The notes under the pieces: model-generated | Seen by the model: only the letters and a program-made list of their open reading frames with translations | What the model was told of the DNA's origin: nothing | Database searches by the model: none | Source: Opitutia bacterium | Lineage (GTDB): Bacteria; Verrucomicrobiota; Verrucomicrobiia; Opitutales; UBA953 | Assembly: GCA_003569245.1 (NCBI GenBank) | Contig: BGOM01000010.1 | Span: forward strand, 62,001-126,000 | DNA length: 64,000 bases | Reading direction: 5' to 3' | Shown here: positions 2,573-62,305 of the stretch, in pieces | How the letters are laid out: the number at the start of each line of letters is the position of its first letter | Position numbering within the stretch: position 1 is the first letter of the stretch | Position numbers and translations under genes: made by a program

Positions 2573-2600
2573 AGTATTGGCCGAAAACGACGGCTGGCAA
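2573..2600 (-). promoter_or_regulatory. sigma70-like promoter, leaderless geometry, for the 2566 gene
   Basis: On the minus strand: -35 TTGCCA (2595-2600), 16 bp spacer, -10 AATACT (2573-2578), then only 6 nt to the ATG at 2566. A transcript starting 6-7 nt after the -10 would begin at the start codon. Confidence 0.55.
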
Positions 2601-2620
2601 CCCCTTGTGCGAAAATCCCC

Positions 2621-2649
2621 TTGTCCCGGGGGCGGGGAAAGTGGCTAAT
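2621..2649 (+). promoter_or_regulatory. sigma70-like promoter, leaderless geometry, for trpD
   Basis: -35 TTGTCC (2621-2626), 17 bp spacer, -10 GCTAAT (2644-2649), 6 nt to ATG 2656. This supports ATG 2656 over the upstream in-frame codon at 2605, which lies before the promoter. Confidence 0.55.
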
Positions 2650-2655
2650 CGGGGT

Positions 2656-3702
2656 ATGGCCACGGATTTACCCACCTTGACGGGCGCTTTGGAGGCGGGC
2701 CGCGACCTTTCGGCCGTGGAGGCGGGGGCCGCGGCCCATGCGATGATCGACGCCGGGGTGACGGATGATGCCAAGGCGGCTTTCCTTCTGGCGCTCGCCC
2801 GTCGCGGCGAGACCGCCGTGGAGGTCACGGCCTTCGCCCAGGCCTACCGCGAACGGGCGCGGAGGGTCGACTTCGGCGACATCCCTGCCCGGGCCATCGA
2901 CATCGTCGGCACCGGTGGCGACCGCTCCGGCAGCTTCAACATCTCCTCCGCCAGCTCGCTGATCGTCGCCGCCGCCGGCGTGCCGGTGCTCAAGCACGGC
3001 AACCGTTCCATCACGTCCAAGTCCGGCAGCGCCGATTTCCTCGCCGGTCTCGGCGTCGCCTTGGAGGCGACCGACGACCAGCTGCGCCGCGCCTTGCGCG
3101 AGGCCGGCTTCTGCTACCTCTACGCGCCCGCTTTCCACCCGGCCTTCAAGGCGGTGCTGGGTGTCCGCAAGCGCCTCGCGGAGCAGGGCCACAAGACGCT
3201 CTTCAACGTGCTCGGGCCGCTCATCAACCCGGCGCGGCCCGCGGCGATGATGGTCGGCGTGTACGATGAGCGCTGGGTGGCGCCGATGGCCGCCGCGCTC
3301 GGCGAGCTCGGCGTGCGCCGCGGCCTGGTGGTGCATGGTCGCGCGGGCGGCGGGATGGACGAGCTCACGACGGCCGGCGAGACGCGGGTCCGCGGGTGCG
3401 GCGAACTCGCCGCCGTCGACGGCGTCTGGTTGCCCGGCGACTTCGGTTTCCAGACCTGCCCGGTCGCCGACCTGCGCGGCGGCTCCCCGGAGGAGAACCT
3501 CGCGCTTTTCTCCGACCTCCTGGTCGGCGCGGTGCCCGCTGGTCTGCTCGACACGCTATGCCTCAGCGCCGGCGCGGCCCTTTGGGTGGCGGGCCGGGCG
3601 CCGGATCCGGGCGCGGGCGCCGTCCGGGCGCGGCAGATCGTCCTCGGCGGCGAATTGCGCGAGCAGGCCCGGCGCTTGCGCGAGGCTTATCGCGAGGGCT
3701 GA
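2656..3702 (+). CDS. trpD: anthranilate phosphoribosyltransferase
   Basis: 348 aa. Transfers phosphoribose from PRPP to anthranilate, the second step of tryptophan synthesis. The N-terminal helical domain is followed by the PRPP-binding motif GTGGDRSGSFNISS (about residues 85-98), KHGNRS (about 114-119), the FNVLGPLINP segment and GGMDEL (about residue 232), all TrpD hallmarks. The frame is open further upstream, but the promoter position favours ATG 2656. No other trp gene is adjacent; the glutamine amidotransferase partner may be the TrpG-like protein at 44469. Its end overlaps waaA by 16 bp, tail to tail. Confidence 0.93.
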   Translation: MATDLPTLTGALEAGRDLSAVEAGAAAHAMIDAGVTDDAKAAFLLALARRGETAVEVTAFAQAYRERARRVDFGDIPARAIDIVGTGGDRSGSFNISSASSLIVAAAGVPVLKHGNRSITSKSGSADFLAGLGVALEATDDQLRRALREAGFCYLYAPAFHPAFKAVLGVRKRLAEQGHKTLFNVLGPLINPARPAAMMVGVYDERWVAPMAAALGELGVRRGLVVHGRAGGGMDELTTAGETRVRGCGELAAVDGVWLPGDFGFQTCPVADLRGGSPEENLALFSDLLVGAVPAGLLDTLCLSAGAALWVAGRAPDPGAGAVRARQIVLGGELREQARRLREAYREG

Positions 3703-4982
3703 AGCGCCGTGAGGATCAGCGCGACGGTCCGCTCGGTCGCGCCGCGGTTGGCATGATGCCAGTCGGCCCCGTGGCGACCGGTCGCGAGCCGACGACCTTC
3801 GTCGGCGCAGAGCTCGGCGATCCGCGCTTCGAGCATCGCCGCATCCTCGACACGGAAGGCGGCCTGCGCCTTTTCAAGGCCCCGGCAGATATCGCGGAAG
3901 TTCGTCATGCGCGGACCATACACGATGGGCACGCCCGCGGCCGCGCATTCGACAGGGGTCTGGCCGCCTTCGTGCGGCGGGAGGCTCTTGCCGCAGAACG
4001 CGAGGTCGGCCGCGCGGGTGAGCCGGCGCAGCTCGCCGGTGGTGTCGGCGAGGTGGATGATCGTCCCGGCGGGAGCCACCGCGCCGCCGGAGGAACGCTG
4101 ATGCCAGGCCAGGCCGCTGGCGCTGGCCTCGGCCGCGACTTCCGCGCGTCGCTCGGAGTGGCGGGGGACGAGCAGCAGGCGGACGTCGGCGCCGGCGGCG
4201 CGGAGCTGGCGGACGCTGCGGATCAGCCGGGTCTCCTCGCCGGGCCAGGTGGAGGAGCCGAGCAGGACCAAGGTCCGCGGGTCGGCGCCGAAGCCGAGGT
4301 CGGCCCGGAGTTGCGCGCGCTCCGCGGCGGGCATGGGCGCGTCGGCGGCGACGTCGAACTTCAGGTTGCCCGTCGTCTCGGCGGCGAAACCGAGCTCGCG
4401 GAAGCGGCGGGCGTCCTCCTCGCTGCCGGCGGCGATCCACCGGAAGTGCGCGAGCACGTAGGCGGAGAGTCGGCGGAACTTCGCATGTCGGCGGAAGGAA
4501 CGGTCGGAGAGGCGGGCGTTGATGAGGAAGGCCGGCACCCCGCGGGATCGGGCTTGCGCGAGGTGCTCGGGCCAGAGCTCGCCTTCGACGAGGATCACGG
4601 CATCCGGTCGAATCCGCCGCCAGGCGAGCGCACTGCAGGGCCAGAGGTCGGCGGGGAAGAGGCCGATGCGGGCGGCGACGTCGGCGTAGCGTTCGCGGGC
4701 CAGGCGGTAGCCGGTGCTCGTGGTCGTGGTCAGCACGAGTTCGATCTTGCCGCTGGCCTGCAGCTGGCGGAGCAGGGGGCCGATGGCCTCGATTTCCCCG
4801 ACCGAGACGGCTTGAATCCAGACCCGGCTGCGGCCCGGGGTCTTGGGGGGCATTTCCGGGAAAAAGCCCAGCCTTTGTGCGAAGCCGGCGCCATACCCGC
4901 CCCGTCGTAGCATCCGCCACACATAGTAAGGCAGGGCCAGCAGGAGCAGGGGAGGGAAGAGAATCCGGTAGGCCCAGGACAT
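3687..4982 (-). CDS. waaA: 3-deoxy-D-manno-octulosonic acid (Kdo) transferase
   Basis: 431 aa GT30 inner-membrane glycosyltransferase that adds Kdo to lipid A precursor. ATG 4982 gives an N-terminal anchor (WAYRILFPPLLLLALPYYVW) directly after the start. The domain order is GT30: VWIQAVSVGEIEA, TTTTSTGYRLA, ILVEGELWPEHL, then a C-terminal GT-B half with LLGSSTWPGEE and PHEGGQTPVECAAAGVPI. The frame is open upstream of 4982, but those residues do not resemble the family. With lpxA and lpxC/fabZ in the same window it supports a Kdo-lipid A outer membrane. Confidence 0.92.
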   Translation of the reverse strand: MSWAYRILFPPLLLLALPYYVWRMLRRGGYGAGFAQRLGFFPEMPPKTPGRSRVWIQAVSVGEIEAIGPLLRQLQASGKIELVLTTTTSTGYRLARERYADVAARIGLFPADLWPCSALAWRRIRPDAVILVEGELWPEHLAQARSRGVPAFLINARLSDRSFRRHAKFRRLSAYVLAHFRWIAAGSEEDARRFRELGFAAETTGNLKFDVAADAPMPAAERAQLRADLGFGADPRTLVLLGSSTWPGEETRLIRSVRQLRAAGADVRLLLVPRHSERRAEVAAEASASGLAWHQRSSGGAVAPAGTIIHLADTTGELRRLTRAADLAFCGKSLPPHEGGQTPVECAAAGVPIVYGPRMTNFRDICRGLEKAQAAFRVEDAAMLEARIAELCADEGRRLATGRHGADWHHANRGATERTVALILTALQPSR

Positions 4983-5205
4983 CGTCAGCCCGACCCTGCC
5001 GAGGGCATGCGAGGCTGTCAGTTCCAAAGGAGCCTCTTTTTGCCGATTTTCCCGCTTGCACGGGAGCCCCGGGGGTGTTTGAACCAACTTTCCACCGTTT
5101 GGAGCGACCGCCGATCGCTTCGGACATCCCAACCAAAACCCAGTCAGCTACCTAAGATCCAAAGTCCCCTCCTTCGGCAGGAATCGGGATACGGAGCCAA
5201 AAAAC

Positions 5206-6060: not shown

Positions 6061-6065
6061 GCGCC

Positions 6066-7106: not shown

Positions 7107-7126
7107 GCCTCCGCAAGCCCGTTCCC

Positions 7127-7162
7127 GGGCCGGCTTCCGCGAGGAGGCCGGCCCTTTGCTTT
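7127..7162 (+). terminator. rho-independent terminator after rpsB-tsf
   Basis: Perfect 8 bp stem GGGCCGGC (7127-7134) / GCCGGCCC (7147-7154) with a 12 nt loop, followed by a T-rich tract (TTTGCTTT). Confidence 0.8.
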
Positions 7163-7188
7163 ACAGGGGCCGCGGACGGGGCTAGTCT
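7160..7188 (+). promoter_or_regulatory. promoter, leaderless geometry, for the DUF983 gene
   Basis: -35 TTTACA (7160-7165), exactly 17 bp spacer, -10 TAGTCT (7183-7188), 5 nt to ATG 7194. The -35 lies in the T-tract of the tsf terminator, so the two units abut with almost no spare DNA. Confidence 0.6.
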
Positions 7189-7193
7189 GCGGC

Positions 7194-7574
7194 ATGCGCT
7201 TCCGTCACGACCTCTTCCTGCGCTGCGCGCGGGGCCGTTGTCCCGACTGCGGCGCCCCGGAGCAACTGACGGGGCTGGCGACGATCCGCGACCGCTGCGC
7301 CGCCTGCGGGATGGTGCTGCGCCGCCGGGAAGGTTTCTTCCTCGGGGCGATGGTCTGGAACTACGGGCTTACGGCCTTCGGTCTCCTGCCGGTCCTGCTC
7401 GTCCTGCGCGCCTATGACTGGATCGGCTTCGCCGCGGCGGTCTGGTTCGCGGTCGCCGTCATCCTGCTGGTGCCTTGGCTGATCCATGGGCTCGCCTGGC
7501 GGCTCTGGCTGGGCACCTACTACGGTTTCCTGCCCGACCAGCTACCGTCGTCGGGACGTCGCCTCGACGACTGA
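7194..7574 (+). CDS. DUF983 family membrane protein
   Basis: 126 aa. Two CxxC zinc-ribbon knuckles (CPDCG at 17-21 and CAACG at 35-39) are followed by GFFLGAMVWNYG and two hydrophobic segments (about residues 55-72 and 79-96). This is the DUF983 layout: a short cytoplasmic zinc ribbon fused to two membrane helices. The biochemical role of the family is unknown. It is a single gene convergent with ispA. Confidence 0.8.
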   Translation: MRFRHDLFLRCARGRCPDCGAPEQLTGLATIRDRCAACGMVLRRREGFFLGAMVWNYGLTAFGLLPVLLVLRAYDWIGFAAAVWFAVAVILLVPWLIHGLAWRLWLGTYYGFLPDQLPSSGRRLDD

Positions 7575-7578
7575 ACGG

Positions 7579-8466: not shown

Positions 8467-8470
8467 GGGC

Positions 8471-8770
8471 TTACTCCTCGGTTGCGCCGAGGCGGAAGAA
8501 CGTCGCCGTGCGGCCGACGCTGCCGATGACCTCGCTGTCCGTGAGTTTCGCCAGTTCCTGCGCCTGGGCGTCCATGGCCTCGCGGTCGGCGGTGAAGCGG
8601 ACCTTCACGAGGTCCGCGTTGCGGAAGGCGTCGTTGAGCAGCTTGGCGATCCCCGCGTTCACGCCGGCCTTGCCGACGAAGACCTTCGGGTCGAGGGTCT
8701 GGGCCAGGCTGCGGAGCTTGCCGCGTTCCGCGCCGGTCAGGCTGGGTTTGTCCTCGGGACCATGTTCCAT
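8471..8770 (-). CDS. yhbY: YhbY-type CRM-domain RNA-binding protein
   Basis: 99 aa, matching the compact YhbY family that binds ribosome precursors. The single CRM domain shows LRSLAQTLDPKVFVGKAGV with the GxxG-like loop, then LVKVRF and IGSVGRTATFFR at the end. First gene of a two-gene unit with ispA. Confidence 0.85.
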   Translation of the reverse strand: MEHGPEDKPSLTGAERGKLRSLAQTLDPKVFVGKAGVNAGIAKLLNDAFRNADLVKVRFTADREAMDAQAQELAKLTDSEVIGSVGRTATFFRLGATEE

Positions 8771-8776
8771 GGGCCT

Positions 8777-8805
8777 ATTTCCGTTTTGCGGGGCAGGGGA
8801 GTCAA
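8777..8805 (-). promoter_or_regulatory. promoter, leaderless geometry, for yhbY-ispA
   Basis: Minus strand: -35 TTGACT (8800-8805), 17 bp spacer, -10 GGAAAT (8777-8782), 6 nt to ATG 8770. The -35 is strong and the -10 matches only at its last three positions. Confidence 0.5.
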
Positions 8806-8862
8806 TGGACTAATGGTCCCGCTTGCCGCTTGCCCCGCCTTCCGCGGGGACTTGAATACGGC

Positions 8863-9444
8863 ATGCTCCTGCAGAACCACGCCTTTTTCGTCCGCGAGCA
8901 AGTGGCGGTCCTCCGCTTCGCCGATGCCTACGACCTCCTTCATCCGGTCTCGGGTCAGCGCATCGGCCTCGCCGCGGAAAAGCCCCGGCTGAAGTGGCTG
9001 CGCCTGATCGTGAAGAAGCAGGCCTTGCCCACCGAAATCGTCGTGCTGGAGGACGATCAGCAGACCGTCGCCCTCCGTCTCGAGAAGGGCTGGTCCTTCT
9101 TCACGTCCCGGCTCGCGGTGTTCGACGCCCAGGGACGGAAACTGGGTTGCCTGCGCAACAAGCTTTTCTCCCTGTCCGGCAAACTCCTGGTCGAGGACCC
9201 GGAGGGGCGGTCGATCGGCGAGTTCAGCGGCGGTGTCTTCAGCTGGACCCGCCAGCTCAAGGACCCGGCTGGGATCGTCATCGGCACGATGGACAAAAAG
9301 TGGGCCGGGCTGGGCAAGGAGCTCTTCACCTCGGCCGATAATTACCACCTGGAGGTCGCCCCGGCGTTCGCCGGGCAGCCGGACAAGGTCGCCCTGCTAC
9401 TGGCGGCCTGCCTGGCTTACGACGTCATTTTTGCCGAAAACTAG
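8863..9444 (+). CDS. LURP-one/phospholipid-scramblase-like protein
   Basis: 193 aa. Alternating short beta strands (FVREQVAVLRFADAYDLL, LRLEKGWSFFTSRLAVFDAQG, GKLLVEDPEG, FSWTRQLKDPAG, VIGTMDKKWAG) resemble the LURP-one/scramblase fold, where repeated 'G..i..fs.k.....' units build a 12-stranded barrel round a C-terminal helix. That helix appears as KVALLLAACLAYDVIF. Function in bacteria is not established. ATG 8863 was chosen over 8830 because a TTGCCC/TTGAAT promoter-like pair lies just upstream. Fold assignment is from pattern only. Confidence 0.6.
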   Translation: MLLQNHAFFVREQVAVLRFADAYDLLHPVSGQRIGLAAEKPRLKWLRLIVKKQALPTEIVVLEDDQQTVALRLEKGWSFFTSRLAVFDAQGRKLGCLRNKLFSLSGKLLVEDPEGRSIGEFSGGVFSWTRQLKDPAGIVIGTMDKKWAGLGKELFTSADNYHLEVAPAFAGQPDKVALLLAACLAYDVIFAEN

Positions 9445-10051: not shown

Positions 10052-12291
<2,240 letters not shown>

Positions 12292-13845: not shown

Positions 13846-14704
13846 GCTGGCGCGCGCAGGCGTCGAGCGTGTTCTTCATCAGCATGGCCACCGTCATCGG
13901 TCCGACGCCGCCGGGGACGGGCGTGATGGCCTCGCAGGCCGGCGCCACCGCGTCGAAGTCGACATCGCCCACGATGCGGTAGCCGGTCTTCTTGGTGGCG
14001 TCGGGGACGCGGTTGATGCCCACGTCGATGACCACGGCGCCGGGCTTGACCATGTCGGCCGTGATGAAGCGGGGTTTGCCGATCGCGGCGACCACGATGT
14101 CGGCCTGGCGAACGATCCCGGCCAGGTCCTTGGTGCGCGAATGGGCGATGGTCACCGTGCAGTCACAGCCTTTGGCGAGGAGCAGGGCGGCCGCCGGTTT
14201 GCCTACGATGAGGGAGCGGCCGACGACCACGGCGTGCTTGCCGGCGGTCTCGACGCCGGAGCGGCGCAGGAGCTCGATCACGCCGGCGGGGGTGCAGGCC
14301 GCGAAGGCGCCGGGCAGCTCCTGCACGAGGCGGCCGATGCTCTGGGTGCCGAAGCCGTCGACGTCCTTGTCAGGCGACACGCGGTTGAAGACCTCGGTCT
14401 CGGGCAGGTGCTTCGGCAGCGGGGCCTGGATCAGGATGCCATGGACCGAGGCGTCGGCGTTGAGGGCGTCGAGGTGGCGGAAGAGCTCCTCCTTGGTGAC
14501 CGTCGCGGGGAACAGCCGCAGGCTGGCCTTCATCCCGACCTCGGCGGCGGTCTTCTGCTTCTTGGTGACGTAGGAGACCGAGGCCGGGTCGTCGCCGACG
14601 CGGACGAAGGCGACGTGCGGGACGACCGGGGCGAGCTGGGCGACGCGGGCCTTGACTTCGGCAAGGACCTGCTGGGCGATGGCGTTTCCGTCGATAAGGC
14701 GCAT
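13838..14704 (-). CDS. folD: bifunctional methylenetetrahydrofolate dehydrogenase/methenyltetrahydrofolate cyclohydrolase
   Basis: 288 aa, standard length. Interconverts 5,10-methylene- and 10-formyl-THF with NADP. Catalytic Lys lies in the [14 protein letters not shown] region (about residues 49-62). The family signatures [13 protein letters not shown] and the dinucleotide-binding [18 protein letters not shown] are present, and the C-terminus carries [20 protein letters not shown]. First gene of a three-gene minus-strand unit. Confidence 0.95.
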
Positions 14705-14826
14705 GGGCCTAGTAGGACGAACCCGGGCCCGAGGGCGAGAAAAAGTCCGTCCGCCGGTCGCCGCGTGATTGTCTCGCCCTGCGGGCGGAAAGGCCCCAAG
14801 GGTAGGGCGTGCCCGACGAAGGACCC

Positions 14827-18234: not shown

Positions 18235-18265
18235 TTGCCAGCAGGCCGGTTTCCTTGCACATAAG
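18235..18265 (+). promoter_or_regulatory. possible promoter for fabG-acpP-fabF
   Basis: -35 TTGCCA (18235-18240), 19 bp spacer, -10 CATAAG (18260-18265), 6 nt to ATG 18272. The spacer is long, so this is a weaker case of the leaderless pattern. Confidence 0.35.
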
Positions 18266-18271
18266 CCCCCG

Positions 18272-19015
18272 ATGCATCTCACGCACACTCCTCGCGTCGC
18301 CCTTGTCACCGGTGCCGGTCGCGGCATCGGCAAGGCCATCGCGGAACGCCTCGCTTCCCACGGTCACACCGTGCTCTGCGTCTCCAAGTCGGACACCTGC
18401 GTCGCGGTCGCCAACGACATCGTCGCCAAGGGGCAGAAAGCCAAGGCCTACCAGGTCGACGTCTCCGACGCCGCCGCGGTCGCGAAGGCCTGCGAGCAGA
18501 TCGTCGCCGAGTTCGGCGCCGTCGAGATCCTCGTCAACAACGCCGGCATCACCCGCGACAAGCTGGTCATGGCCATGTCCGAGCAGGACTGGAACGACGT
18601 CCTCTCCACCAATCTCTCGTCCGCCTTCTACTGGACCAAGGGTCTCGTGCGCCCGATGACCAAGAAGCGCTGGGGCCGCATCATCAGCATCTCCTCGGTC
18701 ACCGGGGTCCAGGGTAACGCCGGCCAGGCCAACTACGCCGCCGCCAAGGCCGGTCTCCATGGCCTCACCATGACCCTCGCCCGCGAGCTGGCCGGTCGGA
18801 GCATCACCGCCAACGCGGTGGCCCCTGGCTTCATCACGACCGACATGACCGGGGAGCTTTCCGAGGACATCAAACAGAAGATCCTCGGGGTCATCCCCCT
18901 CGGCCGTTTTGGCTCGGTCAATGATATCGCGGCCATGGTGGATTTCCTCGCTTCCGAGGAGGGTGGCTACATCACCGGGCAGGTCTTTTCGGTTGACGGT
19001 GGCATGGCTATCTGA
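18272..19015 (+). CDS. fabG: 3-oxoacyl-[ACP] reductase
   Basis: 247 aa classical SDR that reduces 3-oxoacyl-ACP with NADPH in type II fatty acid synthesis. TGAGRGIG nucleotide motif (residues 11-18), NNAGIT, catalytic Ser in SISSVTG, YAAAK with Tyr and Lys, and the C-terminal ITGQVFSVDGGMAI. The clustering with acpP and fabF separates it from other SDRs. 29 nt before acpP. Confidence 0.95.
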   Translation: MHLTHTPRVALVTGAGRGIGKAIAERLASHGHTVLCVSKSDTCVAVANDIVAKGQKAKAYQVDVSDAAAVAKACEQIVAEFGAVEILVNNAGITRDKLVMAMSEQDWNDVLSTNLSSAFYWTKGLVRPMTKKRWGRIISISSVTGVQGNAGQANYAAAKAGLHGLTMTLARELAGRSITANAVAPGFITTDMTGELSEDIKQKILGVIPLGRFGSVNDIAAMVDFLASEEGGYITGQVFSVDGGMAI

Positions 19016-21434: not shown

Positions 21435-21462
21435 TTGCCCCCGGTCGGGCCGCCCTTATCCT
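21435..21462 (+). promoter_or_regulatory. promoter, leaderless geometry, for the 21470 gene
   Basis: -35 TTGCCC (21435-21440), 16 bp spacer, -10 TATCCT (21457-21462), 7 nt to ATG 21470. Confidence 0.6.
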
Positions 21463-21469
21463 ACCTGAC

Positions 21470-22159
21470 ATGTGGCTACGTCTTTCCGGCAGACTCCTCT
21501 CCCTCGCGTGTGTCACCTGGGTTTGCGCGCAGGAAGCCCCGGTGCCGACCCATCTCAAGGTCAAGGCCACCTTCACGCGGGCCGACAAGGACGGGAAGCC
21601 GGAGGTGGTCGCCCAGCCCTCCGTCATCACGGTCGACGGCAAGCGGGCCACCATCACCGTCGGCAATGCCGAGGAGGGGGTGCTCCTGTCGGTCATGCCT
21701 AAAGTGAACGCCGATGGCACCCTGACCTTGGATGTCGTCACCGAGACGCGCGAGCCGCCCGCGACGCCGCCCCCGACGCCGCCGGCCACGGCTCGTCCTG
21801 CCGCCCCCGCCAAGGCCAAGGGCGGCATCCCGCTCTTCCATGGCGTCCTGCCGGCCGACAAACTTTTCTCGATCGAGGATGCCACCGGGGCCCGCAAGTG
21901 GCTGCCGCTGGGTCGGAAGGTCGACGGTTGGACGCTCCGGGCTTACGACGAGAAACGTCAGGCGCTCACCCTCACTCGTCTGGGGGAGTCGCGTGAGCTC
22001 GTCCTGCATCAGGCGGTGATCGAGGATGCGCCCGTCGCCGGGCCCTCCGTCCGGCGTAGCGAGACGCGCCTGACGTTGCCCAAGGGGCAGAGCGCCAAAT
22101 TGGGCGCGGGAGGTCAGGAGGTCACGCTCGAGGCGGAGATCCTCGATTTCTCAAAGTGA
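21470..22159 (+). CDS. secreted protein with secretin-like and GspC/PilP-like segments (paralogue B)
   Basis: 229 aa. Signal peptide ending near VCAQ. The N-terminal half reads VVAQPSVITVDGKRATITVG, then GVLLSVMPKVNADGTLTLDVV, which follows the secretin-domain order closely but is far too short to form a secretin barrel. A Pro/Thr/Ala linker (about residues 95-118) leads to IPLFHGVLPADKLFSIEDATG, RKWLPLGRKVDGWTLRAYD and RELVLHQAVI, matching the C-terminal module of the preceding gene. It has its own promoter 7 nt upstream. Function unknown. Confidence 0.6.
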   Translation: MWLRLSGRLLSLACVTWVCAQEAPVPTHLKVKATFTRADKDGKPEVVAQPSVITVDGKRATITVGNAEEGVLLSVMPKVNADGTLTLDVVTETREPPATPPPTPPATARPAAPAKAKGGIPLFHGVLPADKLFSIEDATGARKWLPLGRKVDGWTLRAYDEKRQALTLTRLGESRELVLHQAVIEDAPVAGPSVRRSETRLTLPKGQSAKLGAGGQEVTLEAEILDFSK

Positions 22160-23337: not shown

Positions 23338-23742
23338 TCAGGCTCCGAAGGCTTGGCGGAAGGCGGCCTCGACGGCGTCCGGCGGGCGGATGGCCTTGAA
23401 CTCGCGGGAGACGAAGGCGTGGACGGTGAAGCCTTCGACGAGCAGTTCGCCGTCGCGCTCGACCCGGTAGGTCAGGCGGAGCCGCGCCTTGGGCTTCTCG
23501 GCCAGCGTCACGGTGATGCGGACGCGATCGTCGAAGCGGGAAGGGCGGTGGTAGGTCAGGCCGGTCTCGAGCACCGGGAGCAGGTAGCCTTCCTGCTCGA
23601 GTTTCCGGTAGGGCGTCCCGAGCTGGTCGAGCAGGGCGACGCGCGCCATCTCAAACCAAGGGAGGTAGTTGCCGTGGTAAGTCACGCCCATGGCATCGGT
23701 TTCGGCGAAGCGGACGCGGGTCTCGACGGTGGCCTGCAGCAT
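23338..23742 (-). CDS. YbgC/4HBT-family acyl-CoA thioesterase
   Basis: 134 aa hotdog protein. FAETDAMGVTYHGNYLPWFEMAR carries the catalytic Asp (about residue 16) and the YHGNY motif typical of YbgC-type thioesterases. The end has the strands VEGFTVHAFVS. ATG 23742 is supported by the family start. It begins a minus-strand unit and is divergent from the 23842 gene. YbgC proteins are often tied to the Tol-Pal system, but no tol genes are present here. Confidence 0.85.
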   Translation of the reverse strand: MLQATVETRVRFAETDAMGVTYHGNYLPWFEMARVALLDQLGTPYRKLEQEGYLLPVLETGLTYHRPSRFDDRVRITVTLAEKPKARLRLTYRVERDGELLVEGFTVHAFVSREFKAIRPPDAVEAAFRQAFGA

Positions 23743-23806
23743 GGGGATGTTCTGGCGGCAAGGACCTCTTTTTCCAATGTCAATCGGCGGCTGCGGAGGC
23801 TTGTCC

Positions 23807-23835
23807 TTGCCCCCCGCCGTTTCCTCCGCTGGACT
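23807..23835 (+). promoter_or_regulatory. promoter, leaderless geometry, for the 23842 gene and CDF transporter
   Basis: -35 TTGCCC, 17 bp spacer, -10 TGGACT, 6 nt to ATG 23842. The -10 is weak (3 of 6). Confidence 0.4.
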
Positions 23836-23841
23836 GACCGC

Positions 23842-24480
23842 ATGGGACAGCGCGAGCGGTTCATCCTTTTCCTGGTCGGGGCCGCCCTCGGGGTGGCCCT
23901 CCTCATGGCTTTCAATTCCCGCGGCAACCCGCAGCGCGACGAGCGGAAGCGCGTGGCTGACGCGCTGAGCCTGCCGGGCATGTATTACGACTACGCGGTC
24001 CAGGGGAAGTCCTTCTTCGGGCATTACGTCCTCGGGGAGCGCCGCACCAAGCTCCCGAACGGCGGCGTGCGGCGCGAGCTGGTCACCGGCGGCCGTAATC
24101 GCTTCGACGCCGAAGGTCGGGTGATGCCGCAGTATGCCATCCTGATCGTCGAGGAGTATGCTCCCGGGGTGGAGCCGGCCGAGACCGCCGCGGTCGCCGC
24201 CGTCGACTTCTTCTACGCCGACCGCGGCGAGGTCCGGCTCAAGCCCGGTCGGGCCCTCCCGCCCGGCGCCCTGCCGGCCTCCGTGCAGCCGCAGGCGGAG
24301 CCCGCCGGTGGCCTGAGCGTCTCCGTCGACCCGCGCAGCCTCAAGGGTGAGACCGCGTTCGCGTTGGCCGATCTCCTCGCCGGACTGCCCAAGACCGCGG
24401 ACGCCGTGGAATCGGCGGCGCTGCGGCACATCGACTGGCGGCGCGAGGTCGAGCAGATCAAGGCCAACTCCACGCGATGA
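23842..24480 (+). CDS. membrane-anchored hypothetical protein
   Basis: 212 aa. One N-terminal membrane helix (FILFLVGAALGVALLMAF, residues 7-24) anchors a periplasmic domain of unknown family, with a strand-rich centre (GHYVLGERRTKLPNGGVRRELV) and a C-terminal helix after a Pro-rich loop. ATG 23842 is favoured by the promoter position. It overlaps the next gene by 4 bp (ATGA), so the two are translationally coupled, which hints at a shared role with the metal transporter. Confidence 0.65.
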   Translation: MGQRERFILFLVGAALGVALLMAFNSRGNPQRDERKRVADALSLPGMYYDYAVQGKSFFGHYVLGERRTKLPNGGVRRELVTGGRNRFDAEGRVMPQYAILIVEEYAPGVEPAETAAVAAVDFFYADRGEVRLKPGRALPPGALPASVQPQAEPAGGLSVSVDPRSLKGETAFALADLLAGLPKTADAVESAALRHIDWRREVEQIKANSTR

Positions 24481-25413: not shown

Positions 25414-25442
25414 TTGGATTAGGCCGGCTGCCCCTTTATCAA
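25414..25442 (+). promoter_or_regulatory. promoter, leaderless geometry, for the sulfatase
   Basis: -35 TTGGAT (25414-25419), exactly 17 bp spacer, -10 TATCAA (25437-25442), 5 nt to ATG 25448. This decides the start against the upstream frame at 25403. Confidence 0.6.
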
Positions 25443-25447
25443 GGGGC

Positions 25448-26875
25448 ATGGACCTCTTCCGCGCCCCTCGGAGTCTCGCCTTCGCTTTGCTCGCCATAGG
25501 CGCGTCCGCGCTCGCCGCGGCGGAGCGCCCCAACGTCGTCTTCATCTTCGCCGACGACCAACGCGCGGATACCATCGCGGCGCTCGGCAATCCGGCGATC
25601 AAGACCCCGAACCTGGATCGGCTGGTGGCGCGCGGGGTCGCCTTCGAGCGTGCCTACATGATGGGCGGCAACAACGGCGCGACCTGCGTGCCGTCGCGGG
25701 CGATGCTGCTGTCCGCGCGCCCGTTGCCGCGGATCGATGAGAAGCTCTCCCGCGACGAGACCTGGCCGCACGCTTTCGGCACGGCCGGTTACGCGACCTT
25801 CATGGCGGGCAAGTGGCACAACGGCCCGGGCTCCGTCGGGAAGTCCTTCCAGCAGGCCCGCTCGCTTTTCGTCGGCGGCATGACCAATCCCCTCAAGGCG
25901 AAGATCAACGACCTGCTGCCCACCGGTAAACTCAGCCCGGACCGCCCCTGCCCGAAGCATCTGTGCGAAGAGGCGACGGATGAGGTGCTGAACTTCCTGC
26001 GCGAGCGCGACCCCGCCCAACCGTTCTTCGCGTACCTCGCCTTCGACGGCCCCCACGACCCGCACATCGTCCCCGAGGCCTTCCCGGTGAAGTATGACCC
26101 GGCCGCGATCCCGCTGCCGCCGAACTTCCTCGGTCAGCACCCGTTCAACAACGGCGAGATGGTCATCCGCGACGAGCAGTTGCTGCCCTGGCCGCGGCGC
26201 CCCGAGGCCATCCAGGCGATGCTGGCCGATTATTATCGTTATATCAGCTACCTCGACGCGCAGGTGGGCCGGGTCCTGGATGCCTTGGACGCCTCGCCGG
26301 CGGGCCGGAACACCTACGTGGTCTTCGCGGCGGACTCCGGCGTGGCCCGCGGCTCCCACGGCCTGATCGGGAAGCAGAACCTCTACGAGCACAGCCTCCG
26401 CGTGCCGCTCATCATCGCGGGCCCGGGCGTGCCCGCGGGCCGGCGCACGCCGGCGTTGTGCTACACGTTCGATGTGCTGCCGACCTTGGGCAAGCTGTGC
26501 GGGGTGACGGCGCCGCCGACCAGCGAGGGCCGGGAGTTCACCGCGGTGCTGGCGGATCCGGCCCGGCCGGCGCGGACGGAACTGGTCTTCGGTTACAAGC
26601 GGATCCAGAAGGCGTTCTCCGACGGTCGTTGGAAACTGATCCGCTACCCGCAGGTGGACCGTACGCAGCTCTTCGACCTCCAGGCCGACCCCTTCGAGAC
26701 CAAGGATCTGTCCGCCGAGCCCGATCAGGCCGCCCGGGTGAAGGAACTGCGCGCGCGGCTGGAGGCCGGCCTGCGCGCCAGCGGGGATCAGGATCCCTTG
26801 ACGGCCGCGACGCCCCAGCCGGCCGCGTGGAGCCCGCCGAAGAAGCTCCCGCAGCCGGGCGAGAAAGGCTTCTGA
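25448..26875 (+). CDS. secreted type I sulfatase
   Basis: 475 aa. Signal peptide MDLFRAPRSLAFALLAIGAS. The N-terminal metal-binding RPNVVFIFADDQRADT is followed by the modification motif CVPSR (about residue 78), whose Cys is converted to formylglycine by an anaerobic or aerobic maturase. The metal/sulfate residues GKWHNGP and the KQNLYEHSLRVPLII segment place it near the iduronate-2-sulfatase/choline-sulfatase-like group. Members commonly desulfate algal polysaccharides in Verrucomicrobiota. The substrate is not readable from sequence, and no adjacent glycan-depolymerase gene was found. Confidence 0.88.
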   Translation: MDLFRAPRSLAFALLAIGASALAAAERPNVVFIFADDQRADTIAALGNPAIKTPNLDRLVARGVAFERAYMMGGNNGATCVPSRAMLLSARPLPRIDEKLSRDETWPHAFGTAGYATFMAGKWHNGPGSVGKSFQQARSLFVGGMTNPLKAKINDLLPTGKLSPDRPCPKHLCEEATDEVLNFLRERDPAQPFFAYLAFDGPHDPHIVPEAFPVKYDPAAIPLPPNFLGQHPFNNGEMVIRDEQLLPWPRRPEAIQAMLADYYRYISYLDAQVGRVLDALDASPAGRNTYVVFAADSGVARGSHGLIGKQNLYEHSLRVPLIIAGPGVPAGRRTPALCYTFDVLPTLGKLCGVTAPPTSEGREFTAVLADPARPARTELVFGYKRIQKAFSDGRWKLIRYPQVDRTQLFDLQADPFETKDLSAEPDQAARVKELRARLEAGLRASGDQDPLTAATPQPAAWSPPKKLPQPGEKGF

Positions 26876-34901: not shown

Positions 34902-34929
34902 TTGCCTCCGGTCCTCCGGCGGCTATCCC
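34902..34929 (+). promoter_or_regulatory. promoter, leaderless geometry, for the 34936 gene
   Basis: -35 TTGCCT (34902-34907), 16 bp spacer, -10 TATCCC (34924-34929), 6 nt to ATG 34936. Confidence 0.55.
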
Positions 34930-34935
34930 TCGCGC

Positions 34936-35430
34936 ATGGCCGTCAAACTCCAGAAAGAGACCTCCCCGCTCGCCACCATCGCCCTGCTCGCCGCCGTCAC
35001 CACGGTGACGATCCTGGTGCTGTACCTCGGGATCCCCGGTACCGGTTTCCACGGCCTGCGTGCCGGCGTGCATTTCGACATGGAAGCCGGCTTCGAGGAC
35101 GCCCGCTTCATGGACAACCGCCTGAAGTGCGAGTCCAACGAGGCCCTCCGCGAGGTCCAGGCCGCCCTCCAGGCCGTCAAGCCGGACTACCCGGTCGAAC
35201 GCGTCACCGTTAAACTCGAGAACTACGCCTCGGGCTACAAGTTCGCGGTCCGTTACGTCACTTACTACGCCCAGCGCCTCAATCTCGGCGGCGAGGGCAA
35301 ATTGTTCCGCCGTGGCGCTCAGGTCGGCGACGCCGAGCTGGACCGCGAGGTCAAGGCGAAGGACGAGGAGCTCGAGAAGGCCATCCGCGGCGCCCTCGAG
35401 AAGTATTTCAAGTCGAAGGGCGCCCAGTAA
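34936..35430 (+). CDS. hypothetical protein with one membrane helix
   Basis: 164 aa. N-terminal membrane helix (TIALLAAVTTVTILVLYLGI, about residues 14-33) and a periplasmic domain with no recognised motif. The C-terminus is a charged helix (DAELDREVKAKDEELEKAIRGALEKYF) likely to form a coiled coil. ATG 34936 is set by the promoter 6 nt upstream. Confidence 0.65.
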   Translation: MAVKLQKETSPLATIALLAAVTTVTILVLYLGIPGTGFHGLRAGVHFDMEAGFEDARFMDNRLKCESNEALREVQAALQAVKPDYPVERVTVKLENYASGYKFAVRYVTYYAQRLNLGGEGKLFRRGAQVGDAELDREVKAKDEELEKAIRGALEKYFKSKGAQ

Positions 35431-41612: not shown

Positions 41613-41711
41613 GCCCGCCACCCTAGGCGGACCGGCCGCGGGCGCAAGTGCCTTGCGGGTGCGGCGTTTGGCTTGGCAGGTGGTCTCCCTTGGGTAACTT
41701 TCGGATACATC

Positions 41712-41903
41712 ATGCGTCTGTCGTCGATGGGTCTGCTCGCCTTGCTGGCTGCGCTCGCCGCAGGTTTGTCCGGTTGCGTGCCGACGGAGGTCAGTTCCGT
41801 GAATCCGGAGTTCGCCGGCTCGATGAAGCTGACGCCCGGCCTTTTCACCACGCCGACCCCCTTGGGCGAGTTGCCCGGATCCCGCGTGCGGGAAGGGGAG
41901 TGA
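41712..41903 (+). CDS. small putative lipoprotein
   Basis: 63 aa. Hydrophobic signal with lipobox LSGC (Cys at residue 22), then a short tail rich in Pro/Thr. A TTGGCA (41673-41678), 16 bp, TAACTT (41695-41700) promoter lies 11 nt before the ATG. Too short for a family call. Confidence 0.5.
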   Translation: MRLSSMGLLALLAALAAGLSGCVPTEVSSVNPEFAGSMKLTPGLFTTPTPLGELPGSRVREGE

Positions 41904-44403: not shown

Positions 44404-44433
44404 CCTCACTTGTTCACACGAGTCCGCCGTTCC

Positions 44434-56434: not shown

Positions 56435-56452
56435 TTGGCACGGACCTGTCGC

Positions 56453-59062
56453 TCAGCCGGCGACGACGATGTTGACCAGCTTGCCGGGCACCACGATCTC
56501 CTTCACGACGGGCTTGCCGGCCGTGAACTTCTGCACGTCGGCGTCGGCCTTGGCCAGCGCGAGCAGGGCGTCCTTGGAGATGTCCTTGGCGACTTTGGCG
56601 GTGGACCGGACCTTGCCGTTGACCTGGAAGATGACCTCGACGGTGGATTCGATGAGCTTGGCGGCGTCGAATTCGGGCCAGCCGGCCGCGGTGATGCTGT
56701 CCGGATGACCGAGGCGGGCCCAGATTTCCTCGCACACGTGCGGGGCGAACGGGGCGGCGAGGCGCACGAAGTCCTCGACGGTGGCGCGGCGGAGGGCCGG
56801 AGACTTCTCGGCGACGTTCATCAGGATCATCATCTGGGAGATGGCGGTGTTGAACTGCAGCGTCTCGATGTCCTTCTCCACCTTCTGGATGGTACGGTGG
56901 AGTTCGCGGACGAGTTCCTCGGATTCCGCGCCGTCCGCGCTGATCTTGGCGGAGGCCGTCCCGGTGTGCTCGTCGATCGCCAGGCGCCAGAGGCGGCGGA
57001 GGAAGCGGGTGATGCCGATGATGCCGTCCGAGTTCCAGGGTTTGGAGGCCTCGAGCGGGCCGAGGAACATCAGGTACATGCGCAGCGCGTCGGCGCCGTG
57101 GTCCTTGACGATGGCGTCGGGGTTGACGACGTTGCCGCGGCTCTTGGACATCTTCTCGCCGTCCTCGCCCATGATGAGGCCTTGGTGGAAGAGTTTCCGG
57201 AAGGGCTCGGCGGTCGGCAGCACGCCGATCTCATGCAGGAAGCGGTGCCAGAAGCGCGCGTAGAGCAGGTGCAGCACGGCGTGCTCGGCGCCGCCGATGT
57301 AGAAGTCGGGGCAACCCCAGTAGTCGAGGTCGGCCTTGGAGGCCAGGGCTTCCGCGTTCTTCGGGTCGATGTAACGGAGGTAGTACCAGCAGGAGCCGGC
57401 CCACTGGGGCATCGTGTTGGTCTCGCGCGAGGCCTTGAGCCAGAGCGGCCCGGGCTGCGGCTGGGATTGCGGCACGGTGGCGCCGGAGGCGGCGTCGTAC
57501 CAGACCTCGGTCCACTCGGGCTCCTTCGACAGCGGGGAATCGCCGGTCGGGGAGGGCTGGTAGGACTTGACGGTGGGCAGGGTGAGCGGGAGCTGCTTGG
57601 AGGTCAGCGGGACGGCGCAGACCTCGACGCCGTTGAGCTGGCAGGTGACGGGTTCCTTGGGCAGGAACTCGCGGACCTCGGAGTCGGCCGGGATCTTGGC
57701 GTAGTCCTCGCGCGAGACCCAGAGGAGCGGGAAGGGCTCGCCCCAGTAGCGCTGACGCGAGAAGAGCCAGTCGCGCAGCTTGAAGTTCACGGCGAGCTTG
57801 CCCTGGCCCTTGGCGGCGAGGTCGGCGGTGATCCGCTTTTTCGTCTCGCTGGCGGAAAGGCCGTCGAACGGGCCGGAGTTCACCATCGGGCCATCCTCGG
57901 TCCAGGCCTGCTCGTTGACGTCGATCGCCTCCTTCGAGCCGACGACCTGGATGATGGGGAGCTTGAACTCCTTGGCGAATTCCCAGTCGCGCTCGTCGTG
58001 CGCCGGCACGGCCATGATCGCGCCGGTCCCGTAGGTGATGAGCACGTAGTCGGCCGTCCAGACGGGGATCTTGGCGCCGTTGACGGGATTGATCGCGTAG
58101 GCGCCGGTGAACACGCCGGTCTTCTTCTTGTCGGCGAGGTCGGTGCGCTCGAGGTCGCTCTTGTTGCGCACCGCGGCGACGTAGGCCTCGACGGCGGCCT
58201 GCTGGGCGGGGGTCGTGATCTTGCCGATGAGCGGGTGTTCGGGCGCGATGACCATGTAGGTCGCGCCGTAAAGGGTGTCGGGGCGGGTCGTGAAGACCGT
58301 CAACGTGTCGGCGTGCCCGTCGAGCTTGAACGTGACCTCGGCGCCTTCGGACTTGCCGATCCAGTTCTTCTGGAGGCGCTTGGTGGAATCCGGCCAGTCG
58401 ACATGGTCGAGGCCTTCGATGAGCTTGTCGGCGTAGGCGGTGATGCGCAGGACCCACTGGCGGATCGGCCGGCGCTCCACCGGATGGTTGCCGCGGTCGG
58501 AGCGGGGGCCTTCGGGCGTGTTGAGGACCTCCTCGTTGGCCAGCACCGTGCCCAGCGCGGGGCAGAACCAGACCGGCTTCTCGGAGACATAGGCCAGACC
58601 GTGGCGGAAGAGCTTGAGGAAGATCCACTGCGTCCAGCGGAAGTAGTTCTCGTCGGTCGTGGAGAGCTCGCGGTCCCAGTCGATCGCGAAGCCGAGCATC
58701 TGCAGCTGCCGGCGGAAATTGTCGATGTTGCGCTTGGTCTGGACGGCGGGATGCTCGCCGGTGGCGATGGCGTGCTGCTCGGCGGGCAGGCCGAAGGCGT
58801 CCCAGCCCATGGGGTGGAGGACGTTGAAGCCGTTGGCTTTCTTGTAGCGGGCGAGGATGTCGGATGCGGTGTAGCCCTCGGGGTGGCCGATGTGCAGGCC
58901 GGCGCCGGACGGGTAGGGGAACATGTCCAGGACGTAGTACTTCGGCTTGCCGCAGCCGATGGGCTCGGTGCGGAAGGTCGCCTGTTCTTTCCAGACGGCC
59001 TGCCACTTGCGTTCGAAGGCCGGGAAATCGTAGCTGCCGGGTTTGGTTTCCGAAGGTTCCAT
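56453..59062 (-). CDS. leuS: leucyl-tRNA synthetase
   Basis: 869 aa class I enzyme. HIGH motif as HIGHPEG in [19 protein letters not shown] (about residues 52-58), CP1 editing domain with [13 protein letters not shown] and the [22 protein letters not shown] region, and KMSKSRGN (about residue 635). ATG 59062 was chosen from the family N-terminus. A TTGCCA, 18 bp, TATCTG promoter lies 9 nt upstream on the minus strand, giving a leader of 2-3 nt at most. Confidence 0.97.
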
Positions 59063-59133
59063 GAAGCCCTGCAGATAGGAGGCTCGGGACGGCGCTGGCA
59101 AGGATTTGGAGAGGGTCTCCCGGCCTATCCCGC

Positions 59134-59163
59134 TTGCCTAGCCCCCGCGGCGGGGGTTATCTC
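59134..59163 (+). promoter_or_regulatory. promoter, leaderless geometry, for galE, with a palindromic spacer
   Basis: -35 TTGCCT, 18 bp spacer, -10 TATCTC, 5 nt to ATG 59169. The spacer holds a 15 bp palindrome, CCCCCGC, G, GCGGGGG (59142-59156), which could bind a dimeric regulator. Confidence 0.5.
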
Positions 59164-59168
59164 CCGTC

Positions 59169-60158
59169 ATGAACGTGCTCGTGGTGGGTGGTGCCGGCTA
59201 CATCGGCAGCCATTGCGTCCGGCAGGCCTTGGCCGCCGGCCATGCGGTCGCCGTGCTCGACGACCTTTCCTACGGCCATGCCGAGTCCGTCCCGCCGGGG
59301 GTGGAGCTTTTCCGGGCGGACATGGGCGATGAGCCGTCCGTCCGGGCGGCCTTGCGCACCGGTCGGACCGACGTGGTGATCGACTTCGCCGCCTTCACGA
59401 ATGTCGGTGAGTCCGTCCGGCAGCCCGAGCGCTACCATGAGAACAACGTCGTCCGGACCGAGGGCTTGCTGCGCGCGATGCTCGCCGAGGACGTGCGCAA
59501 ACTGGTCTTCTCGAGCACCTGCGCGACCTATGGTATCCCGGACCGGATGCCGATGACGGAGGATCTGCCGCAGCGGCCGATCAATCCCTATGGCGCCACG
59601 AAGCTCGCGGTCGAACACCGCCTGCGCGCGCTCGCCGCCACCGAGGGGCTGAGTTTCGCCGCCTTTCGTTATTTCAACGCCGCGGGGGCGTCCGCCGATG
59701 CCGCGATCGGGGAGGACCATGCGCCGGAGACGCACCTGATCCCGCTGGCCATCGCCGCCGCCCTCGGTCGTCGGCCACCGCTCCAGGTCTTCGGTGCGGA
59801 CTACCCGACGCCGGACGGCACCTGCCTCCGCGACTATGTGCACGTCGACGACCTGTCCCGCGCGCATCTGGACGTCCTGCCGAAACTCGAGGCTCCCGGC
59901 CAAGCCCTTTTCTATAACCTCGGCACCGGGACGCCGTATTCGGTGAAGGACGTCATCGCCAGCGTCGGGCGCATCCTCGGCCGGCCCGTGCCGCACGAGT
60001 TCGCCCCGCGCCGGGAAGGCGACCCGCCCGCGCTCTACGCCGACGCCTCCAAGGCCCGCCGCGAGCTCGGCTGGTCACCGCGTTACGCCACGCTCGATGA
60101 CATCGTGCGCACGGCCTGCGCCTGGCACCTCGCCCGTCCCGCGGGCTTCGCTTCCTGA
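59169..60158 (+). CDS. galE: UDP-glucose 4-epimerase
   Basis: 329 aa extended SDR. GGAGYIGSHCVRQALAAGH (Rossmann GxxGxxG at residues 7-13), catalytic Ser/Thr in FSSTCATYG and YGATKLAVE (Tyr and Lys), then RYFNAAGA and DGTCLRDYVHVDDL. Interconverts UDP-glucose and UDP-galactose for LPS or exopolysaccharide. Confidence 0.94.
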   Translation: MNVLVVGGAGYIGSHCVRQALAAGHAVAVLDDLSYGHAESVPPGVELFRADMGDEPSVRAALRTGRTDVVIDFAAFTNVGESVRQPERYHENNVVRTEGLLRAMLAEDVRKLVFSSTCATYGIPDRMPMTEDLPQRPINPYGATKLAVEHRLRALAATEGLSFAAFRYFNAAGASADAAIGEDHAPETHLIPLAIAAALGRRPPLQVFGADYPTPDGTCLRDYVHVDDLSRAHLDVLPKLEAPGQALFYNLGTGTPYSVKDVIASVGRILGRPVPHEFAPRREGDPPALYADASKARRELGWSPRYATLDDIVRTACAWHLARPAGFAS

Positions 60159-60162
60159 ACCG

Positions 60163-61112: not shown

Positions 61113-61155
61113 GTTTGCTCGCCCTCGGCTCCCTCCGCGTCCAACTTTCCGCCCG

Positions 61156-61815
61156 ATGAAGCGTACCGTCCTCATCCACTCCGGCGGGATGGACTCCACC
61201 GTGCTCCTGGCCCACCTCGTGGCCGAGGGCAGGGAAGTGCACGCGCTCTCCGTCGACTACGGTCAGCGGCATCGTCGCGAACTCGCCGCCGCCGCCGAGC
61301 TGTGCGCCTATTACAAAGTGCCGCATCGCATCGCCGACCTCCGGGGCGTGACGTCGCTGTTCGGCGCCAATGCGCTCACCGACGCCCAGGTCGCGGTACC
61401 GGAAGGGCATTACGAGGAGGCCAGCATGAAGGCCACCGTCGTCCCGAACCGGAACATGCTGCTCATCGCGACCGCCGCCGCGTGGGCGATGTCGCTCAAG
61501 GCGTCCTCCGTCGCCTATGGCGCGCACGGCGGCGACCATGCCATCTACCCGGACTGTCGCCCGGCCTTCGCCGACGCGTTGGACCAGGCCATCCGCCTCG
61601 CCGATTGGCACGAAGTCTCGCTGGAGCGCCCGTTCGTCGGCTGGGATAAGACCGCGATCGTGCGCCGCGGCGTCGAGCTCGGCGTCCCGTTCGCGCTCAC
61701 CTGGTCGTGCTACGTCGGGGGCGACCGGCACTGCGGTCGTTGCGGGACCTGCGTCGAGCGTAAGGAAGCGTTCGCCCGGGCGGGCGTCCCGGATCCCACG
61801 GACTACGTCGCCTGA
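61156..61815 (+). CDS. queC: 7-cyano-7-deazaguanine synthase
   Basis: 219 aa. Converts 7-carboxy-7-deazaguanine to preQ0 with ATP and ammonia. PP-loop [11 protein letters not shown] (residues 8-18), [26 protein letters not shown] and a C-terminal zinc site with [18 protein letters not shown] 61156 gives the family N-terminus. queD and queE follow 1.7 kb later, interrupted by two unrelated genes. Confidence 0.94.
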
Positions 61816-61871
61816 GCGCTTATCCCGACGATTAGCCGGAGTAAGAATCGCCCCCGTCCCGTCGAGCGCGC

Positions 61872-61900
61872 TTGCCTCGCAAGACGCGCAAAACTTACAT
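61872..61900 (+). promoter_or_regulatory. promoter, leaderless geometry, for the 61907 gene
   Basis: -35 TTGCCT (61872-61877), exactly 17 bp spacer, -10 TTACAT (61895-61900), 6 nt to GTG 61907. Confidence 0.6.
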
Positions 61901-61906
61901 CGCGAC

Positions 61907-62305
61907 GTGTCCCGGAAGTTCCATCGCCCGCTCGCCTGGCTGACGCTGTTCGCCTGGCTGTCGGCGTCGGGTCTTTCCTGGGATGCGCTGCAGGTCTTCG
62001 CCTGGGCGAAGATGTCCGTGGATAATGCCCGCGAGGCTTCGCTCGGCGCGGCCGTCGGTAAGGCCATGACCGATGCCCCTTGTCCGCTTTGCGTCGCGGC
62101 GCAGGAAGGTCGTAAGCAGTCCGAGCAGTCGCCGCCCGCCGGTCAGGAACTTGCCAAGGCCAAGGTCAAGGCGCCGACCACCCTCTGGGAACTCGGCACG
62201 CGCTCGCCGGCGGTCGTCCGCTCCGGTCATGGGCGACCCGACGATGTTTACGCGGAGGTGCGCCCGTCCGAGGTGCCGGTGCCGCCCCCGCGCGTGCTGG
62301 GCTGA
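61907..62305 (+). CDS. small membrane or secreted protein with CPLC motif (DUF2946-like)
   Basis: 132 aa from GTG 61907. A hydrophobic N-terminus (FHRPLAWLTLFAWLSASGLSW) is followed by a short mature part with CPLC (about residue 60) and a Pro/Lys-rich tail. A CxxC after one hydrophobic segment is shared with DUF2946-type proteins found beside metal transporters, but the match is only by layout. The GTG is set by its promoter. Confidence 0.6.
   Translation: MSRKFHRPLAWLTLFAWLSASGLSWDALQVFAWAKMSVDNAREASLGAAVGKAMTDAPCPLCVAAQEGRKQSEQSPPAGQELAKAKVKAPTTLWELGTRSPAVVRSGHGRPDDVYAEVRPSEVPVPPPRVLG

Follow-up and report, generated by a model that had tools for sequence, protein, structure and literature searches.

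How does a gene begin translation when its promoter stands directly before the start codon and no Shine-Dalgarno (SD) sequence precedes it? The question is raised by a stretch of 64,000 nucleotides (nt; hereafter the window), positions 62,001 to 126,000 of contig 10 of the Opitutia bacterium assembly GCA_003569245.1 (Verrucomicrobiota, Opitutales, UBA953), in which the original prediction had described closely set -35 and -10 boxes at 15 gene starts. We examined promoter position and SD signal in the window, in a larger sample of the genome, and in relatives. Many first genes of transcription units (unit-first genes) are very likely leaderless or carry a leader of 1 to 9 nt, being transcribed from sigma70-type promoters, and leaderlessness is very probably the right reading of the geometry as it appears in the sequence.

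Promoter position across the genome sample

The genome (G000; 2.45 Mb, 24 contigs, 91% complete) was sampled by the window and 39 further stretches, 815,341 bp in total and about a third of the genome. We called 694 genes by codon usage alone, with no motif used in calling, and for 674 of them both the start and the upstream region could be used (12 at edges were left out). The genes comprised 188 divergent genes, 186 with a same-strand gap of at least 60 nt, 80 with a gap of 26–59 nt, and 208 with a gap of at most 25 nt; the first 3 classes form the unit-first set (454 genes) and the last the operon-internal set. Same-strand unit-first genes may include operon-internal ones, which dilutes the promoter fractions. 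The distance from the -10 box to the start codon is given as d, with d 5–7 taken as strictly leaderless, and all d values carry the caveat that start codons are computational calls.

Of the 454 unit-first genes, 70 carry the triplet TTG at -35/-34 relative to the start codon, where 8.3 would be expected; among the 208 operon-internal genes the count is 2, against an expectation of 1.8. By class, TTG was found in 39/188 divergent genes (3.6 expected), 17/80 genes with a gap of 26–59 nt (0.8 expected), and 14/186 genes with a same-strand gap of at least 60 nt (3.9 expected). The operon-internal control had been named in advance in the original prediction, whose claim withstood it.

A two-box mixture model (-35, spacer, -10; upstream range 60 nt) returned TTG(C/A)C(A/C) as the -35 box and (T/C)AnnnT as the -10 box, with spacers of 16 bp in 52% and 17 bp in 43% of cases. 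Promoters were fitted within 60 nt of 63% of the 454 unit-first genes, and with the same motif kept fixed, internal genes gave 1% and dinucleotide-shuffled sequences 4%. The distance d=6 formed a sharp mode, holding 24% of fitted promoters, so that the start codon would begin at the canonical +1. The d 5–7 class held about 22% of unit-first genes (bootstrap 18–25%; median 22.1%) and the d 8–15 class about 23% (bootstrap 19–28%; median 22.6%), and about 45% (40–49%) fell within d 5–15, that is, leaderless or with predicted leaders of 1–9 nt; divergent genes alone reached 28% at d 5–7 and 26% at d 8–15. Further, sites of at least 4 bits at d 4–8 preceded 116/454 unit-first and 7/208 operon-internal genes under a model trained on all 454, compared with 35/454 for a pseudo-start set 18 nt upstream. 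The suggestion that leaderless mRNA is the main mode was borne out in part: the strict class makes up about 22% of unit-first genes, short of a majority, and predicted leaders of 0–9 nt counted together reach about 45%.

Could such sites be an accident of a GC-rich genome or of its codon usage? Gene-blind counts are strongly 3-nt periodic, 57 of the 3057 ATG/GTG codons in the window score at least 4.8 bits, and a free refit of the model to shuffled upstream sequences assigns promoters to 41% of them, all of which speaks for this explanation. Against it stand the contrast between unit-first and internal genes, the 4% recovered from shuffles by the fixed model, the enrichment of TTG at 2 adjacent positions and not in a period-3 series, and the conservation of the geometry across the genus at trpG (below). 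For the set of sites, chance or codon usage is refuted to near certainty. The comparison of -10-to-start distances with shuffled sequence that had been proposed as a check, made here over 815 kb, gave the d=6 mode in genes and 1.4% at d=6 in the shuffle refit.

Several results weigh against a leaderless interpretation. The free refit reaches its 41% without a d=6 mode, so it is position, and not the 63%, that constitutes evidence. No promoter in range was assigned to 167/454 unit-first genes, and strictly leaderless genes are a minority of the unit-first set. A pyrimidine at -1 followed by a purine at +1 occurred at 63/74 starts compared with 234/314 (p=0.066), C being common at -1 in all classes. 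Homologues were at hand for just 22/98 genes with d 5–7; their alignments began near the start in 10, upstream in 1, and more than 8 residues inside in 11, the last being uninformative. A gene-blind count of TTG-to-ATG patterns was ruled by codon periodicity; it rose slightly at the leaderless distance, and under stricter patterns this excess was absent. This whole-sequence count (TTG, gap, A...T, gap, ATG) was dropped as a test, as codon periodicity dominates it.

These alignments bear on whether the promoters are real and the true starts lie further downstream, giving ordinary leaders. Start calls are computational, and 11 of the 22 genes with homologues align only beyond residue 8. On the downstream-start explanation, however, it would be a coincidence that the -10 box and a start codon are separated by exactly 6 nt, the trpG and epimerase products match Pfam families from residue 3, and called starts show no SD excess in the classes tested (the alternative starts themselves lay outside that test). 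We consider downstream starts improbable.

A stronger competitor is that most of these mRNAs carry short leaders of about 1–12 nt and are not truly leaderless, the start codon being recognized in a C-rich context. The d 8–15 class is as large as the d 5–7 class, CACC and ACCC occur in excess ahead of starts whose promoter is distant or unrecognized, and relatives in the order have more genes at d 8–15 than at d 5–7 (0.27 vs 0.07 in G045). In G000 itself, however, the mode is a single distance, with 74/287 assigned promoters at d=6 and the next-largest class, at d=12, holding 25, a distribution that loose short leaders would not produce; we therefore regard predominantly short leaders as rather unlikely. 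In the G000 sample, the base just before the start codon (-1) shows a strong preference for C in both unit-first and internal genes, as often does the base at -2.

Promoter sites in the window

The window was scored by a two-box model whose training set of 408 upstream regions excluded it (Table 1). All 15 predicted sites were recovered at the expected distances and scored as sigma70-type promoters: 11 strict sites with 4.8–10.6 bits and 5–7 nt between -10 and start, and 4 near-leaderless sites with 7.3–9.6 bits and 8–11 nt. The prediction of 17-bp spacers in many cases also held, with 11/15 sites at 17 bp and 4/15 at 16 bp, the latter being the commoner length sample-wide. The genes were said to lack SD sequences, and indeed none of the 15 sites had one of the words GGAG, GAGG, and AGGA with its first base between -16 and -7. 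As expected for rpsB and groES, to which leaders had been ascribed, no promoter above 1.4 bits was found within 25 nt of their starts at 5206 and 29809.

The strict sites at 2656, 8770, 23842, and 25448 are individually weak, an equal score occurring in 1.4–3.4% of the 208 operon-internal genes, and single ones may be chance matches. Given the 57 window codons that reach 4.8 bits, a lone site proves little, and it is the set that stands well above chance. Three further starts share the geometry, 8863(+), 14704(-), and 23742(-), and the earlier list was thus incomplete.

Support for starts that is independent of the promoter comes from the trpG (44469) and epimerase (59169) products, whose Pfam matches begin at residue 3. 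With the start at 2656, the TrpD-like Pfam N-domain begins at residue 12; the start at 2716 preferred by codon usage would cut it. By eye, the starts at 21470 and 25448 give signal-peptide-like N-termini, which at 21470 is added by that start, and the start at 41712 gives a lipoprotein-like one.

Table 1. Promoter sites and associated start codons in the window (positions count from its first nucleotide)
Positions	Strand	-35	Spacer (bp)	-10	Nt to start	Start	Product or remark
2564..2600	-	TTGCCA	16	AATACT	6	ATG 2566	
2621..2658	+	TTGTCC	17	GCTAAT (weak)	6	ATG 2656	glycosyl transferase family 3, TrpD-like
7160..7196	+	TTTACA	17	TAGTCT	5	ATG 7194	DUF983-like, below Pfam cut-off
8768..8805	-	TTGACT	17	GGAAAT (weak)	6	ATG 8770	YhbY family
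8830..8865	+	TTGCCC	16	TTGAAT	5	8863	back to back with 8770(-); newly added
14702..14738	-	TCGCCC	16	CCTACT	6	14704	weak, 4.0 bits; newly added
18235..18274	+	TTGCCA	17	CACATA	8	ATG 18272	near-leaderless; presumably FabG-like (translation read by eye)
21435..21472	+	TTGCCC	16	TATCCT	7	ATG 21470	
23740..23777	-	TTGGAA	17	CAGAAC	6	23742	back to back with 23842(+); newly added
23807..23844	+	TTGCCC	17	TGGACT (weak)	6	ATG 23842	
25414..25450	+	TTGGAT	17	TATCAA (weak)	5	ATG 25448	sulfatase
34902..34938	+	TTGCCT	16	TATCCC	6	ATG 34936	
41673..41714	+	TTGGCA	16	TAACTT	11	ATG 41712	near-leaderless; 63 amino acids
44434..44471	+	TTGACA	17	AATCGT	6	GTG 44469	glutamine amidotransferase, TrpG-like
59060..59101	-	TTGCCA	17	CTATCT	10	ATG 59062	near-leaderless; presumably LeuS-like (translation read by eye)
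59134..59171	+	TTGCCT	17	TTATCT	6	ATG 59169	NAD-dependent epimerase, GalE-like
61872..61909	+	TTGCCT	17	TTACAT	6	GTG 61907	open frame to 62305, uncalled by codon-usage caller
63463..63505	+	TTGCGA	17	CTATCT	11	ATG 63503	near-leaderless; presumably QueD-like (translation read by eye)

Four divergent regions of 89–106 nt, 2564–2658 (using the 2656 start), 8768–8865, 23740–23844, and 59060–59171, each hold 2 back-to-back promoters, with predicted leaders of 0–4 nt. The promoters lie 20–32 nt apart, leaving little space for regulators.

Shine-Dalgarno signal, anti-Shine-Dalgarno, and ribosomal proteins S1 and S21

We counted the SD words GGAG, GAGG, and AGGA in the SD position and in a control position. 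In G000 they were at background, with 55/636 genes compared with 58/636 at the control position, and, beyond what had been predicted, this extended to operon-internal genes (9.6% vs 11.1%, n=208), to genes without an assigned promoter (7.8% vs 7.2%), and to genes with a distant promoter. As a positive control, the same procedure applied to 669 genes in 52 loci titled Proteobacteria gave SD words in 38% compared with 6%; of the 490 unit-first genes in these loci, 0.7% had d 5–7. Ten genomes of the order, pooled, were at background (48 vs 40 control, n=453; the largest single excess was G025, 10 vs 5 of 54). Four class genomes gave 50 vs 44 of 244, with G069 alone showing SD (14 vs 5 of 43), and 6 phylum genomes outside the class gave 156 vs 31 of 399, with an excess in each.

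The anti-SD motif CCTCC was found intact at the 16S 3' end by pattern search in 5/5 readable of 87 order genomes, and also in 3 class genomes and 1 phylum genome. In G000, 16S was not found by covariance, pattern, or DNA searches; the covariance search detects 16S in just 9/14 control genomes, and this absence is not read as loss. The covariance search gave no match in 14/18 relatives, and a DNA search gave matches in 7/20 genomes, some of them fragments. Two single-contig genomes of the order, G022 and G045, had no 16S match by covariance, pattern, or DNA search, perhaps through incompleteness or masking of the sequence. The idea that SD is absent because S1 or S21 was lost is rejected, as 9/9 genomes searched, G000 included, have both families. 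With the anti-SD intact in readable relatives and S1 and S21 present, it appears to be the mRNA that has lost its part of the SD pairing.

Operon-internal genes

Internal genes that lack SD need another route of translation. Genomes were compared with each other by means of a second version of the caller, which yields 461 unit-first and 175 internal genes in G000. Stop-to-start gaps of 1–5 nt made up 59/175 internal junctions in G000, compared with 17/113 in 6 SD-using Verrucomicrobiota (p=0.0006) and 18/169 in Proteobacteria (p=3e-7), and the over-represented junctions include TGACCATG and TGACATG. Ten other order genomes showed no such excess (11/77). We infer that termination-reinitiation would serve internal genes in G000.

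Conservation and spread among relatives

The trpG locus was found in 17/19 genus genomes (L041–L057, L041 being G000's own), G010 and G013 giving distant matches only, and 16 of the 17 loci were readable upstream (L042 is cut off). The -35 box TTGACA was identified in 16/16 readable loci and the -10 box AATCGT in 14/16, with the start 6 nt after -10 in 15/16 and 5 nt in 1; the spacer varies. Upstream of the -35 box, TTGTTCACACG (window 44409–44420) is kept, by eye, in 16/16 readable genus loci and may be an operator. Elsewhere in the order, 4/8 trpG loci were readable: in L063 the boxes read TTGACC and TAGAAG, at d=11, and L058, L060, and L061 (the last read one codon off) have no such promoter. 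By eye, AGGAGG stands just before the trpG start at L058, and isolated SD-like sites thus occur in the order.

We applied the promoter model trained on G000 to relatives, each with 25–77 unit-first genes, which makes differences between relatives rough. Promoters at d 5–15 were found in 43% of unit-first genes in G000, 44% in G024 (25 genes only), 34% in G045, 32% in G020, and 26% in G028, with further order genomes at 16% (G021), 14% (G025), 12% (G022 and G027), and 6% (G019 and G026). Class genomes ranged over 16% (G048), 15% (G069), 7% (G063), and 1% (G105), and the 6 SD-using phylum genomes over 0–4%. The 5 named loci L071–L075 (titled Opitutaceae twice and Opitutales, Opitutia, and Verrucomicrobia once each), with 45 genes, had 16% at d 5–7 and 26% at d 8–15. 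Eight other loci titled Verrucomicrobia or one of its subgroups (class established for part of them), with 70 genes, had 12% at d 5–7 and 19% at d 8–15, and SD in 6% of unit-first genes compared with 4% in the control; judging from these, the order may not be alone in having short leaders.

Across 21 genomes, SD excess and the share of short leaders were negatively correlated (Spearman -0.45, p=0.04; G023 was excluded, having 8 unit-first genes only), which lends weak support to a coupling between SD loss and leaderlessness. Few short leaders without SD excess were found in G019 (0.06), and G026, also at 0.06, had a small excess (3 vs 0 of 39). In the class genome G105 (GC 67%), SD words showed no excess (20 vs 20 of 71) and short-leader promoters were all but absent (1%), possibly reflecting a third mode or a misfit of the model.

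Comparison with known systems and proposed mechanism

Actinobacteria and Deinococcus-Thermus retain SD sequences at their leadered and operon-internal genes. Mycobacterium studies (PMC3898074 and PMC4633059) reportedly belong to the leaderless-gene literature of Actinobacteria. G000 resembles both phyla in that a large share of genes, more than chance allows, have a -10 box whose centre lies about 10 bp from the start codon, and differs from them in that SD words are no more frequent than background in the gene classes tested. According to passages of Zheng 2011 (PMC3160421), leaderless genes are widespread in bacteria, with mean shares of 19% in Actinobacteria and 39% in Deinococcus-Thermus, and a citation in passages of PMC9581028 puts leaderless transcription in 21.6% of bacterial species at up to 40% of transcripts. 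Bacteroidetes have AT-rich upstream signals, as stated in a passage of PMC3160421, whereas G000 has C before the start and predicted leaders mostly of 0–9 nt where a promoter is seen.

The suspicion that leaderless mRNA had not been described as the main mode in this group has to be corrected for the phylum. No report of it in Opitutales was found in the titles, abstracts, and passages of open-access literature. The word "Verrucomicrobia" is absent from the main text of Zheng 2011 (PMC3160421), whose row "Other Bacteria" (8/20 genomes) could contain members. In Akkermansia muciniphila, 10% of confident transcription start sites (TSS; 886 positions) lie at annotated gene starts by Cappable-seq, as given in passages of Ettwiller 2016 (PMC4782308), and Akkermansia and isolate IMCC26134 are listed as SD-scarce in a part of PMC10783764; NCBI taxonomy leaves IMCC26134 unclassified within Verrucomicrobiota. 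Akkermansia muciniphila thus shares the phylum and leaderless starts with G000, by experiment there and predicted from sequence here, and shares are counted per TSS there and per unit-first gene here. By our method, the class relative G048 has 4% at d 5–7, compared with 22% in G000. SD-scarce genomes with a conserved CCUCC have few or no SD pairings on the mRNA, as predicted for G000, and keep the anti-SD, as do the readable relatives of G000 in the order. Archaea with mainly leaderless mRNAs, such as Haloferax volcanii (PMC3986360 and PMC5397173), are similar in having many leaderless transcripts, predicted ones here, and little SD use; unlike archaea, which have their own promoters and ribosomes, G000 has bacterial sigma70-type boxes. 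The mechanism would be a known one in unusually strong form, and its novelty would be one of degree and of combination, predicted leaderless mRNAs or leaders of 0–9 nt occurring with no detectable SD in the gene classes examined.

We propose that the housekeeping RNA polymerase holoenzyme would read TTG(C/A)C(A/C), a spacer of 16–17 bp, and a loose (T/C)AnnnT, and would begin transcription about 7 nt downstream of the -10 box. The start codon of many unit-first genes would then lie at +1 or within about 10 nt of it, and the mRNA, by this predicted transcript start, would begin with AUG or GUG or carry a leader of 1–9 nt. Start codons at the 5' terminus would probably be bound directly by ribosomes loaded with initiator tRNA, and operon-internal genes may be reached by termination-reinitiation over very short junctions and not by SD pairing. 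It is possible, if on balance doubtful, that the lineage has wholly abandoned SD pairing yet keeps its anti-SD, with entry at terminal starts, reinitiation over 1–5 nt, and a switch of mode within a single phylum.

For annotation, gene finders that expect SD could misplace starts in the order, and promoter geometry can help to set them, as at 2656 and 21470. If the proposed mode of initiation is true, the order would allow initiation that is SD-independent and largely leaderless to be studied in bacteria beside SD-using members of the same phylum, and it would become testable how, and in which sequence of events, SD was lost and start sites shifted to the promoter.

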